Source of the DNA: Calditrichota bacterium | GTDB taxonomy: Bacteria > Calditrichota > Calditrichia > RBG-13-44-9 > J042 | Direction: 5' to 3' | DNA: 37,095 nt | NCBI GenBank assembly: GCA_013150955.1 | Contig: JAADJD010000053.1 | Span: forward strand, 1 to 37,095 | Part shown: positions 2,455 to 35,992 of the stretch, piece by piece | Layout: each line of letters opens with the position of its first letter | Numbering within the stretch: position 1 is the stretch's first letter | Notes under the pieces: generated by a model | Told to the model about the DNA's origin: nothing | The model's database searches: none | What the model saw: the letters and a program-made list of their open reading frames with translations, nothing else | Program-made: the position numbers and the translations under genes

Positions 2455-2931
2455 TTAACGAATTAATAACATTTTTCGGGTTAGAATGTTGCCTTCGAAT
2501 CGAATCTGATAAAAATACATGCCACTAGCAACGGGGTGACCGTGATTGTTCCTGCCGTCCCAGGTGAGTCGATATTTCCCGGCCTTTTGCTTGTGGAAGG
2601 TCAATTTTCGCACTTCACGTCCGCGAATGTCGTAAATGGCAATGGTTACCTCCCCACCGCGGGGCAGCTGGTATTCGATGGTGGTGCTGGGATTAAATGG
2701 GTTGGGAAAGTTCTGCAGCAACTTCAGGGTCTTTACCGTTTGCGACCTGGATTTCTGAGAACCGGTTACAGCTTCTGCACTATCGATCTCGAATGTAATT
2801 TTCTGGATACTGTCCACAGGAATGTTAAACACGTGACCATCCTTTTGATGGATAATGATGAAAGTTTGTCCCTGCACGGAGTACAGTGCCCCAGTAATCA
2901 TCACGCTTAAAAGAAAAAGGGTCTTCATCAT
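2455..2931 (-). CDS. Small secreted protein: KDG module plus T9SS type A sorting domain only
   Basis: The start is taken at the ATG at 2931 (or the adjacent ATG at 2928), because AGGGA sits 5-8 bases upstream and a signal peptide (MKTLFLLSVMITGALYSVQG) follows directly; the longer frame from 2967 would bury it. The mature protein is about 135 aa. It has a 'HQKDGHVFNIPVDSIQKITF' module like the one in the neighbouring LamG protein, a short linker, then a complete C-terminal sorting domain. That domain has NFPNPFNPST, then VTIAIYDIRGREVRKL, W-D-G-R-N-x-x-G, PVASGMYFYQI and a basic end (RKMLLIR). Such domains direct export through the type IX system and attachment at the surface. There is no separate functional domain between the two modules, which is unusual. 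It could be a remnant, an adaptor, or a partner of the LamG protein. Confidence 0.85.
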   Translation of the reverse strand: MMKTLFLLSVMITGALYSVQGQTFIIIHQKDGHVFNIPVDSIQKITFEIDSAEAVTGSQKSRSQTVKTLKLLQNFPNPFNPSTTIEYQLPRGGEVTIAIYDIRGREVRKLTFHKQKAGKYRLTWDGRNNHGHPVASGMYFYQIRFEGNILTRKMLLIR

Positions 2932-3359
2932 TTGATCCCTGTTGTTTTTATCCAATGTTGGAATCAATCAAGGAGACAGGCCTTTTAAAAAAGGATCTCC
3001 CTTCTTTTCAAATCTGCGTTAAAATTTTTATTGAATGGTTAACAAAAATATAAATTTCATCGTGAAAAATTTCAATCATTTTCGGTGAAATTTTTAAAAA
3101 AGAGTGCATATTCACGTCTAAATACCCGCTGGAAAGTCGGTTGAAAGGTATGATCTTGCGGGCTGGAAAATAAGGACAGAGATTGCTTTTGGGCCGCAGG
3201 AGGCAGCAGCATTTAGGTAGAAAAACGGCTTGCTTTTGTTTGCCGTATTTTGGCAGGAATGATTTAAAAGACTGTCAACCAGAGGGGGGAATTCATCATA
3301 AAAAAAGGGAATCGCTAACCGATTCCCTTTCCATTTTCTATGTCTTCACCAAATAATTT
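2932..3359. other. Intergenic region (428 bases) between the KDG/T9SS gene and the NuoI-like gene
   Basis: This stretch holds no convincing gene. It should contain the promoter of the two-gene operon at 1615-2931, and it is AT-rich near 2990-3110. Its right end carries the terminator of the NuoI-like gene (listed separately). No RNA gene or recognisable operator was seen. Confidence 0.6.
3300..3331 (-). terminator. Intrinsic terminator of the NuoI-like gene
   Basis: An 11-bp perfect stem (AAAGGGAATCG / CGATTCCCTTT, 3304-3314 and 3320-3330) encloses a 5-base loop. On the minus strand it is followed by a run of seven T (3300-3306 read in reverse), and it lies 30 bases after the stop codon of the gene at 3360-3878. 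Confidence 0.88.
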
Positions 3360-21930: not shown

Positions 21931-23748
21931 TCAAATCATCGCCCGGGCAGCATTGTTTTGATGGGCCTGGATGAGCTTGAGCATTTCCCCGATGTCCAGA
22001 ATCATGATCACCCGACCATCGCCCAGAATGGTGGATCCGGCGATGCCAGGGGTGTTCTTTAAATAAGCGCCCAGCGGTTTGATCACAATTTCTTTCTGGC
22101 CCAGCAGATCGTCGACCACCAGGCCAAACACCCGGTTGGCAATGCCAACTACCACCGTGTAAAATCGATCCAGCTGATGGTTCCCGGGCACGTTGTAAAT
22201 GTCCCGAATGTAGACCAGTGGGAGGACTTTCTCCCGCAAACGGATAACCTCTTCCCCGTGAATGGAGTGGACTTCATCCCGGGACGTTCGAACCACCTCA
22301 ATGACCGAACTGAGGGGCACGGCAAACACCTCGCCAGCAACCTGCACCAGCAATCCCTGAATGATGGCCAGCGTTAGCGGCAGTTTGAGGATAAACTTGG
22401 TGCCCACGCCCACCTGGGATTTTACGGTAATCATCCCATTCAGCTTGGTGATGTTGGTTTTGACCACATCCATGCCCACACCGCGACCGGAAACACTGGT
22501 CACCTGTCGGGCGGTGCTGAATCCTGGCATGAAGATCAGATTGTAGACTTCCGCTTCCGACAGTTCCTTGGCGTCTTCGGCACTGATGATTCCCTTTTCC
22601 ACGGCCTTTTGTTTGATCTTTTCGGGATCAATGCCCCGTCCATCGTCTTCAACCTCGATGATGATGTGGTTGCCTTCGTGCCCCGCAGCCAGTCGAATCA
22701 TTCCCTTACGGGGCTTGCCCAGTTTTTCCCGCTCTTCCGGGCTCTCAATGCCATGATCCACCGAATTGCGGATCAGGTGCACCAGCGGATCGCTGATTTC
22801 TTCAATGACCGATTTGTCCAGTTCGGTTTCCTCCCCCTCCAGCACCAGATCGATCTCTTTTTTGAATTCGCGGGAAAGATCCCGTACCAGGCGGGGAAAT
22901 TTGTTAAAGATGCGCCCGATTTGAACCATTCGGGTTTTCATAACCGCAGATTGCAATTCGGAGGTGATGAAATCGATCTGGGCGGTGGTATCCACCAGTT
23001 CCTGATAGTTGGTTTCTGCTTTTAGATTGTTAACAATCTGCGCCAGGCGGTTTCGACCCAACACCAGCTCGCCCACCAGGTTCATGAGATTATCCAGCCG
23101 TTCCACATCCACCCGAATGGTGGAGTCGATCACTTTGCCCAGCTGATGATGGCGTGAAAGATAGGATTTGCTAACGGCATTGGCGTCGCCGCTGGAATTA
23201 CCGTTTTGCGGTGTCGCTGCGGTTTCGGAAGCGGGTTTGGTCGCACTTTTTTTCTTCCGTGATTTTTTCCGCTTTTTGGTTGGCGTTTCCGAAGCAGTCG
23301 GTTCCGGTTCTGCGGCAGGTGGGGGTGCGGTTTCGCCAGGATTCTGCCCCTCGGCGATCGCCTTGAGCTTGTTCAGTATCTCATCCAGCGGAATTTCCTG
23401 AATCTGTCGGTCGATCACCTGCTGAAGCAGCACTTTCATCTGGTCGTAGGCTTCCAGCAGGGTGTCCATCATCCAGGGTTGAAAGGTTAGCTGGCCTTTG
23501 CGCATTTTATTGAGCACATCTTCAAATCGATGCGCCAGAGTGCTCATCTGGTCAAAACTCAGAAATCCCGAAGTCCCTTTGATGGTGTGCACCGCCCGAA
23601 AGATCCGGTTGATCAGGTCGGGATCTTCCGGCTGCGCTTCCAGCTGGATGAGATCCTGATCCAGGTTTTCCAGAATTTCCTGGGTTTCCACCACAAAGCT
23701 ATCCACAATTTCCAGCATGTCTTCGCTGAACATGGGATGATTACTCAT
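21931..23748 (-). CDS. cheA: Chemotaxis histidine kinase CheA, lacking a recognisable P2 domain
   Basis: The 605-aa protein starts at the ATG at 23748 (AAGGAG 8 bases upstream). Domain order: Hpt with phospho-accepting H54 (RAVHTIKGTSGF, residues 1-125); a linker at about 126-195 rich in Pro, Ala and Lys, including KKRKKSRKKKSA; dimerisation helices (200-275); ATPase with N box LIRNSVDHGIESPEER (325-340), G1 VEDDGRGID (366-374) and G2 GRGVGMDVVKTNI (421-433); and a CheW-like domain (465-600). It autophosphorylates from ATP and passes phosphate to CheY proteins. The P2 domain that docks CheY is not visible; the basic linker takes its place. The first 8 bases overlap the end of the CheZ-like gene. 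It is the last gene of the operon and converges with the peptidase gene, 27 bases away. Confidence 0.93.
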   Translation of the reverse strand: MSNHPMFSEDMLEIVDSFVVETQEILENLDQDLIQLEAQPEDPDLINRIFRAVHTIKGTSGFLSFDQMSTLAHRFEDVLNKMRKGQLTFQPWMMDTLLEAYDQMKVLLQQVIDRQIQEIPLDEILNKLKAIAEGQNPGETAPPPAAEPEPTASETPTKKRKKSRKKKSATKPASETAATPQNGNSSGDANAVSKSYLSRHHQLGKVIDSTIRVDVERLDNLMNLVGELVLGRNRLAQIVNNLKAETNYQELVDTTAQIDFITSELQSAVMKTRMVQIGRIFNKFPRLVRDLSREFKKEIDLVLEGEETELDKSVIEEISDPLVHLIRNSVDHGIESPEEREKLGKPRKGMIRLAAGHEGNHIIIEVEDDGRGIDPEKIKQKAVEKGIISAEDAKELSEAEVYNLIFMPGFSTARQVTSVSGRGVGMDVVKTNITKLNGMITVKSQVGVGTKFILKLPLTLAIIQGLLVQVAGEVFAVPLSSVIEVVRTSRDEVHSIHGEEVIRLREKVLPLVYIRDIYNVPGNHQLDRFYTVVVGIANRVFGLVVDDLLGQKEIVIKPLGAYLKNTPGIAGSTILGDGRVIMILDIGEMLKLIQAHQNNAARAMI

Positions 23749-24613
23749 TGCCAGAACTCCTTTTTTCCCGATTTGCATTTGAAGCCGGTGACGGAGACGA
23801 ATCCGGGGAAATGTTCCCCTGGAACAACTGGTCGATTTCTTCCTGCAGGAACGTGGGATTTTCCACGGATGCCGAACGGGAGAAGATGGCGTCGGCGGTT
23901 TGCTGGCGATGATCATCGCGCGTGTAGGAGGCCTGCGGATCGAATGGCAGCGGTTGCACCGAAACCGGCTCGTTTTCGGATGGAGAGGCGACGGGGGCCT
24001 CCAGTCGGTTCAACAATTGTTCGATGCGTTCCTGTACCGATTCGATCAGGTGGTTCACCGCGGCAATCTGCTGGGAGGTAATGTCCTGCACCTGCAGGGA
24101 GAACATGATGTTGCTGGCGTTTTCTTTGACATCGTTAATCTGTTTAAGCGAACGGGTAAAGGTTTTCCGCAGCGCCTTCAGGAGAGTCTTTTTCTCCTCC
24201 TGTACCGCCTTTGCCTGCCGAATCCATTCCGGGGTACCCATCGTTTCCGGATCCATGTCCAGCAGTCGATCCAGTTTACGTTCCAGCCGGTTAATTTTTC
24301 GGTGGAAATCGGTGGCCTGGTTCAGGCTGGATTGTACTTCCCCCAGTTTAAACAGAATATCGTCCAGAATGTCCAGGATTTCGTTAGTGGCCAGTTCGGT
24401 TGCGCGGGTCACATCGTTTAGCTGCGAGGAGGCGCGCGGCATTTTGGTGGTGCTCTCTCGCAGCGATCGATTCATGTCCTGCATCAACGGCACGATGTTC
24501 TGCACGAATCCGAACAATTCCTCTAAAAATGGGATGACGCGCTGGCCAAATATAAAGAGCGCCTTCAGCTCGTTGATCCTTTCCAGTATGCGTTCCATCT
24601 GTTGCGGATTCAT
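23741..24613 (-). CDS. cheZ: CheZ-like CheY-P phosphatase
   Basis: The 290-aa protein is almost wholly helical up to residue 205, consistent with the long CheZ four-helix bundle. The segment LQVQDITSQQI (173-183) aligns with E. coli CheZ QDFQDLTGQVI. It keeps the two residues that matter for CheY-P dephosphorylation, Asp and Gln four positions apart (D177, Q181). After a flexible, Pro/Ser-rich linker, FLQEEIDQLFQG (255-266) resembles both the CheZ C-terminal CheY-binding helix and the FliM N-terminal CheY-binding peptide. The role inferred is removing phosphate from the CheY proteins encoded just upstream. It overlaps the upstream cheY by 4 bases (ATGA) and cheA by 8 bases, so all are made together. 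Overall identity to proteobacterial CheZ seems low, and its stretch of residues before position 60 is not obviously CheZ. Confidence 0.8.
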   Translation of the reverse strand: MNPQQMERILERINELKALFIFGQRVIPFLEELFGFVQNIVPLMQDMNRSLRESTTKMPRASSQLNDVTRATELATNEILDILDDILFKLGEVQSSLNQATDFHRKINRLERKLDRLLDMDPETMGTPEWIRQAKAVQEEKKTLLKALRKTFTRSLKQINDVKENASNIMFSLQVQDITSQQIAAVNHLIESVQERIEQLLNRLEAPVASPSENEPVSVQPLPFDPQASYTRDDHRQQTADAIFSRSASVENPTFLQEEIDQLFQGNISPDSSPSPASNANREKRSSGNE

Positions 24614-24987
24614 TTCTCCCCCGTTGCTTTAATCACCTGTTCAATTTTTTCCTTTAATGATTTTAGTGAGAACGGTTTCACAATGTAGCTGTTTACCTGA
24701 TATTCATAGGCTTTCATCACGTCGTCCTGCCGATCTCGTATGGTAATCATGATCACCGGAATGTGAGACGTTCGCTCGTGCTTCCGGATGGCCTGCACCA
24801 GTTCCAGTCCGTCCATTTCCGGCATGTTCCAGTCGGTAATTACCAGATCCACCGGCTCCCGTTCCAGATAGTGCCAGGCCGTTTTCCCATCGCCGGCTTC
24901 CAGAATGTGGGTAACGCCCAGCTTCTTCAGCACACTTCCCAGAATACGCCGGACGATGATGGAATCTTCGACAATCAAACATTTCAT
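24610..24987 (-). CDS. cheY: CheY-type single-domain response regulator (second of two)
   Basis: The 125-aa protein is a lone receiver domain. The acidic pocket is E7-D8, the phospho-acceptor is D52 (LVITDWNMPEMDG), the switch Thr is T82 (IPVIMITIR) and the conserved Lys is K104 (YIVKPFSLKSL). The lone domain fits a diffusible output protein. It has no DNA-binding or enzyme domain. It starts 7 bases after the other cheY and its stop overlaps the CheZ-like start (ATGA). The DWNMPEMDG variant is typical of CheY proteins acting on flagella or gliding motors, but the target cannot be told here; it could also act as a phosphate sink. Confidence 0.92.
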   Translation of the reverse strand: MKCLIVEDSIIVRRILGSVLKKLGVTHILEAGDGKTAWHYLEREPVDLVITDWNMPEMDGLELVQAIRKHERTSHIPVIMITIRDRQDDVMKAYEYQVNSYIVKPFSLKSLKEKIEQVIKATGEK

Positions 24988-24994
24988 AATCGCG

Positions 24995-25360
24995 TCAGTT
25001 GATGTATTTCGACACTTCGTATTGAATCCGCTTCTGGCCGAACGGCTTGATCAGATACGAATTGGCGCCCAGTTGCATGCCTCGCTGGATGTCCTTTTCG
25101 TCATCCAGGGACGACAGGATGATCACCGGAATTTCCGCGTATTCGGTATCTTCCCGAATGGTCTTCAGCAGCTCGAAGCCATCCATGTTGGGCATGTTCA
25201 GGTCGGTGATGATCAGATCCACTTTTTCCCGGGGTAACTTTTCCAGGGCATCCATACCATCTCTGGCGGCAACGACCCGGTACCCCTTGGCCCGTAAGGC
25301 AAACGTTAAAAACTTACGGATGGATTCCGAATCATCGACGACCATGATGACCTTATGCAT
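24995..25360 (-). CDS. cheY: CheY-type single-domain response regulator (first of two)
   Basis: The 121-aa receiver protein starts at the ATG at 25360, with AAGGAG 7 bases upstream, overlapping the end of cheR by 8 bases. Key residues are D9-D10 (MVVDDSES), phospho-acceptor D53 (LIITDLNMPNMDG), S83/S84 (IILSSLDD) and K105 (YLIKPFGQKRI). The switch residue is Ser, where the other CheY here has Thr, and the two differ clearly in sequence, so they are not a recent duplication. One may act on the motor and the other as an adaptation factor or phosphate sink. Phosphate would come from CheA in the same operon. Confidence 0.92.
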   Translation of the reverse strand: MHKVIMVVDDSESIRKFLTFALRAKGYRVVAARDGMDALEKLPREKVDLIITDLNMPNMDGFELLKTIREDTEYAEIPVIILSSLDDEKDIQRGMQLGANSYLIKPFGQKRIQYEVSKYIN

Positions 25361-26234
25361 AGTGACACTCCTTCTTATACACAATTGTCTTCGTAAAATG
25401 AACCGGTTTAAATGCATGGGACACGCCGTAGAGGGATTCGGAATAGCCCAGCAGTAAATATCCGCCGGGATTCAGGCTGTCGTACAACGAATTGACCACC
25501 TGGCGTTTGGAGCGTTCGTCGAAGTACAGCAGGACGTTGGCGCAGATGATCACGTCCATTCCGCGGATTTGCTGCATGTTCCAGCGATCCATCAGATTCA
25601 ATTGCCGAAATTGAACCATCTGTCGAATTTCGGGTGCAATCTGGTAACCGGTGCTTTGGGGCTGAAAGTAGCGCTGCAGCAGTCCCGGTGCAATTTTCCG
25701 GACGGCGTAGTCCCGGTAAAGTCCCTGTCGCGCTTTCTGGAGAACCTGACTGTTGATATCGGTGGCCAGGATCTCGACCCGAATGCCTGTCAGTAGCGGT
25801 CGAAATTTTTCCTGAAGCAGGATGGCCAGCGTGTACGGTTCCTCGCCCGTGGAACAGGCCGCGCTCCAGATCCGAATGCTCTTGCCCGGCCGTTGACGGG
25901 CCCGCCGGAACAGTTCCGGAAAAATGTGCCGCTCCAGTGCCTCCAGTTGGGCCTCGTTCCGGAAAAAGAACGTCTCGTTAATCGTAATCTGATTGATCAG
26001 TTGTTGCAATTCGCTATCCATCAGCCCATTTTGAATTTTGCGAACGTAGGTTTCAAAATCGTTAATGTTCAGCGCTTTCAATCGCTGGTACAAGCGATTC
26101 TCCAGGAAATATTTCTTATTGTCCGGAAAAAAGATGCCGGTTCGCTGATAGATAAAATCCCGCAAACGCAAAAACGTTGGCTCGGACAACGTGATATTCG
26201 AGCCCGACAGCTCTATGTTGGTTAATATTCCCAT
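25353..26234 (-). CDS. cheR: Chemotaxis protein methyltransferase CheR
   Basis: The protein is 293 aa from the ATG at 26234 (GAGAG upstream, 13 bases after the HEAT gene stop); a longer frame to 26297 overlaps the upstream gene and is less likely. The N-terminal helical domain has RLRDFIYQRTGIFFPDNKKY and TINETFFFRNEAQLEAL. The SAM-binding fold has IRIWSAACSTGEEPYTLAI, then VEILATDINSQVL, VIICANVLLYFD and GGYLLLGYSESL. CheR adds methyl groups to receptor glutamates for adaptation. No methyl-accepting receptor or CheB methylesterase is nearby, so partners must lie elsewhere in the genome. Its last 8 bases overlap the first cheY. Confidence 0.92.
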   Translation of the reverse strand: MGILTNIELSGSNITLSEPTFLRLRDFIYQRTGIFFPDNKKYFLENRLYQRLKALNINDFETYVRKIQNGLMDSELQQLINQITINETFFFRNEAQLEALERHIFPELFRRARQRPGKSIRIWSAACSTGEEPYTLAILLQEKFRPLLTGIRVEILATDINSQVLQKARQGLYRDYAVRKIAPGLLQRYFQPQSTGYQIAPEIRQMVQFRQLNLMDRWNMQQIRGMDVIICANVLLYFDERSKRQVVNSLYDSLNPGGYLLLGYSESLYGVSHAFKPVHFTKTIVYKKECHYA

Positions 26235-26247
26235 TTTTGCTCTCTGC

Positions 26248-27594
26248 TTATTCCGATTTCGAGTGTTCTCTGGCGTTACTGGAAACGGGTGTTGCATTCA
26301 CCGCCTGTTGAAGGTCGGGTGCATTTAACCAGTCGTTGCCTTTTACCTGTAAAATTTCCATGGCATAGTTTTGGATGGATGGATCGGGATCGTTCAGCGC
26401 TGCCAGTACCAGTTTCCCCAGGCAGGGGGAGCTCAGGCTCTTCGCGATGTCAATGACCGCCATTTTGGTTTCATCGTTCAGTTCGCCAAAATGCGCTTCG
26501 ATGTATTGAATGGCTTCTTGAATTTCGGGCAGGTTGCAGGTCGTCTCTTCCTGCGCCGAAAGGTGGGCGATCAGCCCGATGATAAATTGACTGCCGGCGT
26601 CAATGTTCAACTGGCCGGCTTTCATGTGGTTTAATAGTGCGGGGACGACCGCCAGACCACTCTTGAGAAAGATCTGAAAAATTTGCAGATCCAGTCCGTC
26701 GTCCAGCCCGATTTTCGGGATCAGATATTCCAGAAGTTCCGTGGTGGGGAACATCTGCAGTCCCTGCACGGCGGCCTTCAGGTAATTGATATCCAGATCA
26801 TCCAGCATCTGGATGAAGTACGGTTTCAGGGATTCTGGAAGAGCGGGTTTCTCGGGTAATGATTTTATGATGTTGACGATGGATTGCAGGATGACCGGAC
26901 GGGCCAGTTCGTTGACCCGTTCCGCCTGTCGGATCAGTAGATCTAACAGCTCGGGATCCTGTTTTTCGGCGATGGCTTCGGCGGCGGCCAGTTGAACCAC
27001 GGGGTCTTCGTCCTCTAAAGCGGTTTCAAAAAACTGTTTATCGACCCGGTGGGGAAAATGACGAAACGCCGCCACAATGTTGGGCCGCGCATATGCCTTT
27101 TGCGGATAAAGTTCCAGCAACCGGTCTGCGTGGGCTTCCAGTTGAAGTTGTCCTATGGCGTCTACCGCAGCACAGATGACGTTGGGGTCGCTGTCTGTTA
27201 AGCGCGCCGCGATGCGGTCTCCCAGGTGCCGGGCGGGCATCAGTGCCAGAAGATCGATGGCAAATTTGCGAACGTCTTTGTCGCCATGGTCAATGTACGG
27301 AGCCAGCGCGTCCACTGCCGGTGCGCCAATTTTCACCAGCAGATCCCCTGCCAGATTCCGCACCACAATGTTTTCGCTGGTAATCAAACGGGCGACCTGT
27401 TCGATCACTTCCGGTGTCGGATGGGCCAGCACAAACTGCGCCGCGGCGTCGCGGACACCCCGGTCTGAATCGGCCAGCAAATCAACAACTTTTATGGCAA
27501 CTTCCGGTGGGCAATCCTGTTCAAATAGCTGTTCGATGGTTTCCCGCCGAACGGTGGGATTCGAATCCTCTAAGCGTTGAATATATGCTTGCAT
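26248..27594 (-). CDS. HEAT-repeat protein heading the chemotaxis operon
   Basis: The 448-aa protein has no signal peptide or membrane segment, so it is cytoplasmic. It is a HEAT/PBS-lyase-like helical solenoid over nearly its full length, with repeats such as SNPTVRRETIEQLFEQ, DRGVRDAAAQFVLA, NIVVRNLAGDLLVKIGAPAV, KDVRKFAIDLLALM, DPNVICAAVDAIGQL, DPVVQLAAAEAIAEK and PSIQNYAMEILQVKG. Such solenoids bind proteins. It is the first gene of the chemotaxis operon (GGAAGGG before the ATG), 13 bases ahead of cheR, so it is probably made in the same amounts as the signalling proteins. A scaffold or adaptor role for the array or for the methyltransferase is inferred from position only. It is unrelated in architecture to the HEAT-cyclophilin lipoprotein apart from the repeat class. 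Confidence 0.88.
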   Translation of the reverse strand: MQAYIQRLEDSNPTVRRETIEQLFEQDCPPEVAIKVVDLLADSDRGVRDAAAQFVLAHPTPEVIEQVARLITSENIVVRNLAGDLLVKIGAPAVDALAPYIDHGDKDVRKFAIDLLALMPARHLGDRIAARLTDSDPNVICAAVDAIGQLQLEAHADRLLELYPQKAYARPNIVAAFRHFPHRVDKQFFETALEDEDPVVQLAAAEAIAEKQDPELLDLLIRQAERVNELARPVILQSIVNIIKSLPEKPALPESLKPYFIQMLDDLDINYLKAAVQGLQMFPTTELLEYLIPKIGLDDGLDLQIFQIFLKSGLAVVPALLNHMKAGQLNIDAGSQFIIGLIAHLSAQEETTCNLPEIQEAIQYIEAHFGELNDETKMAVIDIAKSLSSPCLGKLVLAALNDPDPSIQNYAMEILQVKGNDWLNAPDLQQAVNATPVSSNAREHSKSE

Positions 27595-34672: not shown

Positions 34673-34673
34673 A

Positions 34674-34689
34674 TGGCACAGAAGTTGTA
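34674..34689 (+). promoter_or_regulatory. Possible sigma-54 (-24/-12) promoter upstream of the Kelch gene
   Basis: TGGCAC-AGAAG-TTGTA matches the sigma-54 consensus TGGCAC-N5-TTGCA in the -24 box, the spacing and the TTG of the -12 box, but has T in place of the normally conserved C. It starts two bases after the kinase stop codon and about 50 bases before the likely Kelch start. The gene for a sigma-54 activator lies two genes upstream. It is a tentative call because of the -12 mismatch. Confidence 0.25.
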
Positions 34690-34723
34690 TCATTTATCTG
34701 TGTCAAGGAAGAAGGATGGGAAT

Positions 34724-35992
34724 ATGAAACGCTGGATACATGGGATGAAATGGATTGTGGCCGGACTAATCCTGCCCCTGGCGCTGGTTTGGGGCCAGTG
34801 GGTGGAAGGCCCCTCGATGCCCAAACCCCGGGCCGGTGCCGCAGCGGTGGTGTTCAACGATGCCATCTACGTGTTTGGAGGCAAGACCAATAATAACAAT
34901 GTGTTGAATTCGGTGGATCGCTACGATCCCGCCACCGGGGAATGGCAATCCCGTGCCCTGCCCAATTTTCAGATGCCCCGCTACAACGCTGCTGCCGTGG
35001 TCTTTGAAGGCAAAATTTACCTCATCGGTGGTGTGGGTATGGGGGGACAGGTGCTCAAGTCCGTGGAAGTGTATGACCCTGCGCAAAATAAGTGGTTTAC
35101 TGTGCATCGTATGCACTATCGCCGCCAGGGCCATGTGGCCGTGGTACTGAACGGGAAAATTTGTGTGCTGGGAGGTAGCGAAGATCTGGGGTACGAATAC
35201 GCCGACGACATCGAATGGTACAATCACCCCAACAACAACTGGGAAGAAGCCGAGTCCGAATTGCCGGAAGGACGGGCCGCTCCGTTCATCGGGGTGGTGA
35301 ACAACCGCGTTTACCTGTTTGGAGGCTATTACATTCAGCCAATATCTCAGGCCATTGTGGGTGAACCGGATACCAGCTGGTATTTCACCTGGAGTGAGTT
35401 GCCTCCGCTGCCCGCTCCCCGGGCTTACGGGGGAAGCGTGACCCTGGGAGAGACCATTTATTTAATCGGTGGTGTGGGTAGCGATGGCCGGGCCACCAAC
35501 CGGGTGGAAAGCTTTCGGGTGAACGAAAACGCCTATGCCACTGAACCCTCTCTCCTGACCCCTCGCAGTGGCATGGCAGTCGCCCTGGTCGATAGCGTGA
35601 TTTATGTTATGGGTGGGTACGACGAAAACAATGCCACCATTCTGTCCACCATGGAGATGCTCAACTTACGCTACACGGCCATCGATCGTCCGGAAACGCC
35701 GCCGGGCATCCCGGTAGAATTTGTGCAAATCTGGGGATATCCCAATCCGTTCAATGGACGGATCGCTTTAGATGTTCAATTAAAAACCGCTTCTGAAATT
35801 ACCCTTTCCATATTTAACTTGCGGGGTCAACGGGTCAAACAAATTTTTAAGGGAAGTTTAAGTGCGGGAACGCATCAATTCATCTGGGATGCGCGGGATG
35901 ATCAACAGGCCAGTGTGGCATCGGGCGTTTATTTTGCCGTGGTCAAAGCGGGACAATATGTGCGAAAATTCAAAATTATTTACGTGCGGTAA
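34724..35992 (+). CDS. Secreted Kelch-repeat protein with T9SS sorting domain
   Basis: The start is taken at the ATG at 34724, behind AAGGATGGG; an ATG at 34673 right after the kinase stop is possible but lacks a site and adds a non-hydrophobic leader. The 422-aa protein has a signal peptide (WIVAGLILPLALVWG). About five or six Kelch repeats follow (AAAVVFNDAIYVFGG, AAVVFEGKIYLIGGVG, VAVVLNGKICVLGG, IGVVNNRVYLFGG, GSVTLGETIYLIGGVG, VALVDSVIYVMGG), forming a beta-propeller. The last 85 residues are a T9SS type A sorting domain (WGYPNPFNGRI, LSIFNLRGQRVKQIF, ASGVYFAVV). It should be displayed or released by type IX secretion and bind glycans or proteins. It follows the kinase gene directly and overlaps the next gene by 35 bases. 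Confidence 0.87.
   Translation: MKRWIHGMKWIVAGLILPLALVWGQWVEGPSMPKPRAGAAAVVFNDAIYVFGGKTNNNNVLNSVDRYDPATGEWQSRALPNFQMPRYNAAAVVFEGKIYLIGGVGMGGQVLKSVEVYDPAQNKWFTVHRMHYRRQGHVAVVLNGKICVLGGSEDLGYEYADDIEWYNHPNNNWEEAESELPEGRAAPFIGVVNNRVYLFGGYYIQPISQAIVGEPDTSWYFTWSELPPLPAPRAYGGSVTLGETIYLIGGVGSDGRATNRVESFRVNENAYATEPSLLTPRSGMAVALVDSVIYVMGGYDENNATILSTMEMLNLRYTAIDRPETPPGIPVEFVQIWGYPNPFNGRIALDVQLKTASEITLSIFNLRGQRVKQIFKGSLSAGTHQFIWDARDDQQASVASGVYFAVVKAGQYVRKFKIIYVR

Follow-up and report, generated by a model that had tools for sequence, protein, structure and literature searches.

A divergent CheZ encoded in a Calditrichota chemotaxis operon and its probable role in removing CheY-P

Does a helical protein encoded next to cheY in a Calditrichota bacterium end the CheY-P signal of flagellar chemotaxis, and how far does it resemble the CheZ known from Escherichia coli? 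The gene lies in the window, by which we mean the whole stretch of 37,095 nucleotides that was analysed. An earlier note on this DNA had proposed a CheZ-like phosphatase with an intact catalytic pair. We consider that the gene probably encodes a divergent, functional CheZ that ends the CheY-P signal of flagellar chemotaxis, and we put the probability of this reading at roughly 90%.

The cheZ operon and its distribution

The open reading frame had been placed at 23741 to 24613, between cheY and cheA. Its boundaries and its position are exact, with the start of cheA at 23748 and the cheY gene at 24610 to 24987; the strand, which the earlier note did not give, is the minus strand. The features of the locus, in the direction of transcription, are as follows.

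26248 to 27594, minus strand: HEAT-repeat protein at the head of the operon (Pfam HEAT_2, 2.3e-25)
25353 to 26297, minus strand: cheR (Pfam CheR, 1.2e-60)
24995 to 25417, minus strand: cheY2, second response regulator (Pfam Response_reg, 4.1e-32), with a probable start at about 25360, within the open reading frame
24610 to 24987, minus strand: cheY1, directly upstream of cheZ and the likely CheZ substrate (Pfam Response_reg, 1.8e-30)
23741 to 24613, minus strand: cheZ (P0001), 290 aa (Pfam PF04344, 37.3 bits, cut-off 30.7, E = 3.5e-9)
23999 to 24607, minus strand: predicted long helical hairpin of CheZ, helices 3 to 118 and 128 to 205, turn 119 to 127 (AlphaFold2 model)
24071 to 24088, minus strand: catalytic motif QDITSQ of CheZ, residues 176 to 181, with D177 (codon 24085-24083) and Q181 (codon 24073-24071), from the profile alignment to E. 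coli D143/Q147
23822 to 23851, minus strand: putative C-terminal CheY-P docking helix of CheZ, FLQEEIDQLF, residues 255 to 264, FliM-like (from motif and conservation)
21931 to 23748, minus strand: cheA, 605 aa from the ATG at 23748 (Hpt, H-kinase_dim, HATPase_c and CheW domains)

The operon order is HEAT-cheR-cheY2-cheY1-cheZ-cheA. The start of cheZ and the stop of cheY1 share four bases (ATGA, 24613-24610), and the 3' end of cheZ overlaps the start of cheA by a few bases. The same order, HEAT-cheR-cheY-cheY-cheZ-cheA, is found in most FCB loci for which enough sequence is available. The HEAT-repeat gene keeps its head position in most FCB cheZ loci, an orthologue of cheY2 (53 to 97% identical) occupies the same place in most of them, and cheY1 adjoins cheZ there too. 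The product of cheY1 retains the positions of the E. coli CheY acidic pair, the phospho-Asp, Trp58, Thr87, Tyr106 and Lys109. Elsewhere in the window, the proteins at 2455 to 2967 (minus strand) and 34673 to 35992 (plus strand) carry Por secretion (T9SS) sorting tails; these agree with the earlier description of the organism as T9SS-bearing and have no shown link to cheZ.

A contig scan that used the catalytic motif as its pattern returned 324 cheZ loci, a number that speaks to spread and not to conservation, as the pattern itself contained the Asp and Gln. Among the best 80 of the 324 loci the labels are mostly Calditrichota, Kryptoniota, Rhodothermales, Ignavibacteria, Kapaibacterium, Chloroherpeton and Bacteroidetes, and a single locus is labelled Gemmatimonadales. 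In the Rhodothermales member Roseithermus sacchariphilus strain RA a CheZ has been annotated (AWN76_017500), with a locus-tag order of cheA, cheZ, cheY, cheY, cheR (PMC7409140). The gene had been put forward as a good representative of a divergent branch in a family considered mainly proteobacterial. The divergent branch stands, but the mainly proteobacterial distribution is outdated given the FCB-wide spread of these loci and the published annotation. A literature search on CheZ together with Caldithrix returned nothing on point. The cheZ of the window is thus mostly ordinary: it belongs to a large group, annotated in part before now, that spans flagellated Calditrichota, Bacteroidota and bacteria of the Ignavibacteria type, and a good annotation pipeline would give it the name CheZ.

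Kinship with E. coli CheZ and the catalytic pair

The best family for the cheZ product is Pfam CheZ, and the profile search proposed in the earlier note places it above the curated cut-off; no other protein in the genome matches PF04344. The narrower NCBIfam CheZ equivalogs are not reached (21.1 against 350 bits for NF041271, 15 against 257 for NF008368), which indicates a divergent CheZ branch. Neither a CheC nor a CheX domain is among the listed matches of the product. At E ≤ 1e-3, Pfam CheZ is matched by each of the 84 aligned relatives and the next family by 10 of them. When the profile of these 84 sequences is compared with the PDB, the best structure is E. coli CheZ (1kmi) at E = 3.2e-7, followed by a match at 0.0039, and a smaller profile of 21 sequences also reaches 1kmi (E = 1.9e-6). 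Taken whole, the protein has little similarity to E. coli CheZ, and a phmmer search of the PDB with the single protein gave nothing useful, 1kmi being reached by family profiles only. Shuffling and reversal of E. coli CheZ served as a control for coiled-coil bias: against the family profile the native sequence reaches 33.8 bits, the best of 2000 shuffles 13.2 and the reversed sequence 1.3. With the motif columns removed, the corresponding scores are 24.2, 8.6 (again the best of 2000 shuffles) and 2.0. Judged from these comparisons, the product is a real but distant relative of E. coli CheZ.

The segment LQVQDITSQQI, which the earlier note had lined up with E. coli CheZ, is present, and the family profile sets QDITsQ on QDLTgQ. 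In the alignment of the family profile to 1kmi, D177 corresponds to E. coli D143 and Q181 to E. coli Q147. Conservation of the pair was assessed in homologues that had not been selected by the motif: 60 genomes, the window's own included, were searched with the whole protein, and 21 of them yielded a homologue. None of the 21 departs from Q174, Q176, D177, I178, T179 or Q181, so the conservation of D177 and Q181 among orthologues, on which the first proposal had been made to depend, holds throughout this set. Low overall identity with conserved catalytic residues has also been described for proteobacterial CheZ (PMC7750401).

The predicted hairpin and the putative docking tail

The AlphaFold2 model, built on a deeper alignment, has a mean pLDDT of 78, rising above 90 around the turn at 119-127. 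Beyond the hairpin it places short helices at 234-249 and 256-265, the latter with low confidence. The long antiparallel helical hairpin anticipated in the earlier note is thus predicted for the monomer, but Foldseek, run with two models, did not separate it from other hairpins: with one model 1kmi ranked 16 (E = 0.078), with the other it fell outside the top 50, and many unrelated hairpins were returned. A conserved proline (P59) and the catalytic Asp lie 118 residues apart in the window protein and 94 in E. coli CheZ. This distance is 66 to 69 in the Caldithrix-type proteins; almost all of the remaining FCB proteins fall at 102 to 120, with maxima at 107 and at 117-118. A long branch with full support parts the long and short types. 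CheA divides in the same way, being 71 to 85% identical to the window CheA in genomes with a long CheZ and about 51% or less in the other genomes examined, which suggests that the long cheZ operon is transferred or passed down as one unit. A Calditrichota genome of the same order (G014; loci L004 and L039) has the long cheZ operon plus more distant CheA genes (C366 and C106), and in its operon CheA the N-terminus of the window CheA is matched twice, by two stretches near the N-terminal end.

The docking motif FLQEEIDQLF is followed by about 26 further residues to the C-terminus. Among the 84 sequences Q257, I260 and D261 are at least 90% conserved and F264 is invariant. The pattern SQ(D/E)(D/E)IDxLF or a near variant occurs in the tail of nearly all relatives, and the chance of the docking motif in a shuffled tail is about 0.03%. 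The genome's own FliM carries LSQQEIDQLL near its N-terminus, close to the CheZ tail; the N-terminal stretch of the FliM frame reads LSQQEIDQLLSG, and the C-terminal end of E. coli CheZ reads SQDQVDDLLDSLGF. In E. coli, one face of CheY-P is the binding site for both the N-terminus of FliM and the C-terminus of CheZ, and by analogy the CheZ tail and FliM N-terminus would share a face of CheY-P here.

The tails of Rhodothermales CheZ (L138-L158) contain, in most members, two to five tandem SQDEIDALF-type motifs joined by short linkers. There are five copies in the Rhodothermus-like L140 and L142 and four in L138, L139 and L144; the tandem docking tail of L140 (1348-1569) is coded by a repeat of about 48 bases, and copy number differs among close Rhodothermales relatives. 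A literature search, with most subscription journals outside it, found no published report of tandem docking motifs in CheZ. We tentatively suggest, at somewhat less than even odds, that the FCB branch of CheZ has turned its tail into an adjustable docking array, of which the window protein has a single motif. If so, one CheZ could capture several molecules of CheY-P, and the number of repeats would tune avidity against FliM. An apparent CheZ-CheA fusion in the Rhodothermus-type L141 was rejected: the frame reads through a run of N, an assembly gap that lies within the repeats. A Gemmatimonadales-labelled CheZ of 491 aa (L100, 5046-6518) has a long acidic, partly repeated tail with docking motifs at both ends, and no che genes were seen adjoining its gene.

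Probable role in flagellar chemotaxis and known counterparts

FliM and FliN are encoded on another contig than cheZ, amid apparent flagellar genes, and neither CheC nor CheX, sought as an alternative CheY-P phosphatase, was found anywhere in the genome. Among 39 relatives of the same class, 19 have both cheZ and fliM, 14 have neither, 5 have fliM only and 1 has cheZ only (Fisher p = 1e-5, ancestry uncorrected). The cheZ-only genome is 72% complete, and three of the five genomes with fliM in which cheZ was undetected are less than 90% complete. Together with the operon, these observations make CheY-P removal in flagellar chemotaxis the most likely role of the protein. CheA would phosphorylate CheY, and CheY-P would bind the N-terminal FliM peptide and drive the flagellar switch. 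The FliM-like C-terminal helix of CheZ, on a flexible linker, would catch CheY-P, and the dimeric helical hairpin would then insert Q181 into the CheY active site and orient a water molecule, while D177 would help to position the CheY lysine. Hydrolysis of CheY-P would end the signal. Dimerisation, water activation and phosphatase activity are attributed to the protein by analogy with E. coli CheZ.

Three other explanations were weighed. The match to CheZ might be an artefact of coiled-coil composition in an unrelated helical protein, as other helical families do score weakly (DUF948 at 5.7e-6, below its own cut-off) and Foldseek returns many generic hairpins. However, CheZ is the best family, with 84 of 84 relatives against 10 for the next; shuffled and reversed E. 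coli CheZ score far lower than the native sequence; and the gene is flanked by cheY and cheA, and its product carries a CheY-docking-type tail. With the profile match to 1kmi added, this explanation is refuted as far as sequence allows, and we give it a negligible chance. It is also conceivable that CheZ binds CheY-P by its tail motif and yet serves mainly as an adaptor or scaffold whose phosphatase activity is weak or absent. Such a role would fit a hairpin length that departs from that of E. coli CheZ and an operon with two CheY proteins, one of which could act as a phosphate sink. We regard it as improbable, since invariance of both catalytic residues and of QxQDITxQ in 21 homologues is not required of a pure scaffold and the genome search found no other CheY-P phosphatase family.

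Alternatively, the operon may control something other than flagella, such as pili or gliding, with CheZ acting on a CheY that is no partner of FliM. The operon and the flagellar genes do sit on different contigs (C7 and C63), but the CheZ tail shares its docking peptide with the N-terminus of the genome's own FliM and cheZ co-occurs with fliM. Moreover, the other core-matching CheA, a 1849-aa frame on C66, is more like a non-flagellar class, a class assignment that is inferred. We consider a non-flagellar output very improbable, and a phosphatase of flagellar chemotaxis remains the preferred reading.

The least ordinary features of this CheZ group sit in relatives of the window protein, in their differing hairpin lengths and tandem docking tails. 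What emerges is a conserved, operon-linked CheZ branch outside Proteobacteria, in which the catalytic residues are intact and the hairpin and tail are remodelled. The branch is useful for separating the parts of a CheZ that may be essential, the active site and the docking peptide, from those that may set localisation or affinity, namely hairpin length and docking-motif number.

With E. coli CheZ (1kmi; PF04344) the window protein shares the D-x3-Q site in a QDxT context, the hairpin, predicted here, a linker and a C-terminal CheY-P docking helix of the SQxx(I/V)DxL type, and both genes adjoin cheY. It differs in its hairpin, where 24 more residues separate the conserved Pro from the Asp, in the roughly 26 residues past its docking motif and in having cheA directly downstream. 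The R. sacchariphilus CheZ is of the same long type and 39% identical, and the order HEAT-cheR-cheY-cheY-cheZ-cheA is seen in L064, from another strain than RA; its tail has two docking motifs, where the window protein has one. The short Caldithrix-type CheZ proteins (L006-L022) have the same motif, the same docking tail and a cheY directly upstream, but they are 204 to 217 aa long with a shorter Pro-to-Asp distance, and no cheA lies directly downstream in the stretches examined. Azorhizobium caulinodans CheZ (PMC7750401) offers a parallel in its D165/Q169 pair and in a reported change of hairpin length, by about 25 residues and matched between the two arms. There, in contrast, the hairpin is shorter and the N-terminal helix longer, and the gene is an orphan outside the cheA cluster.
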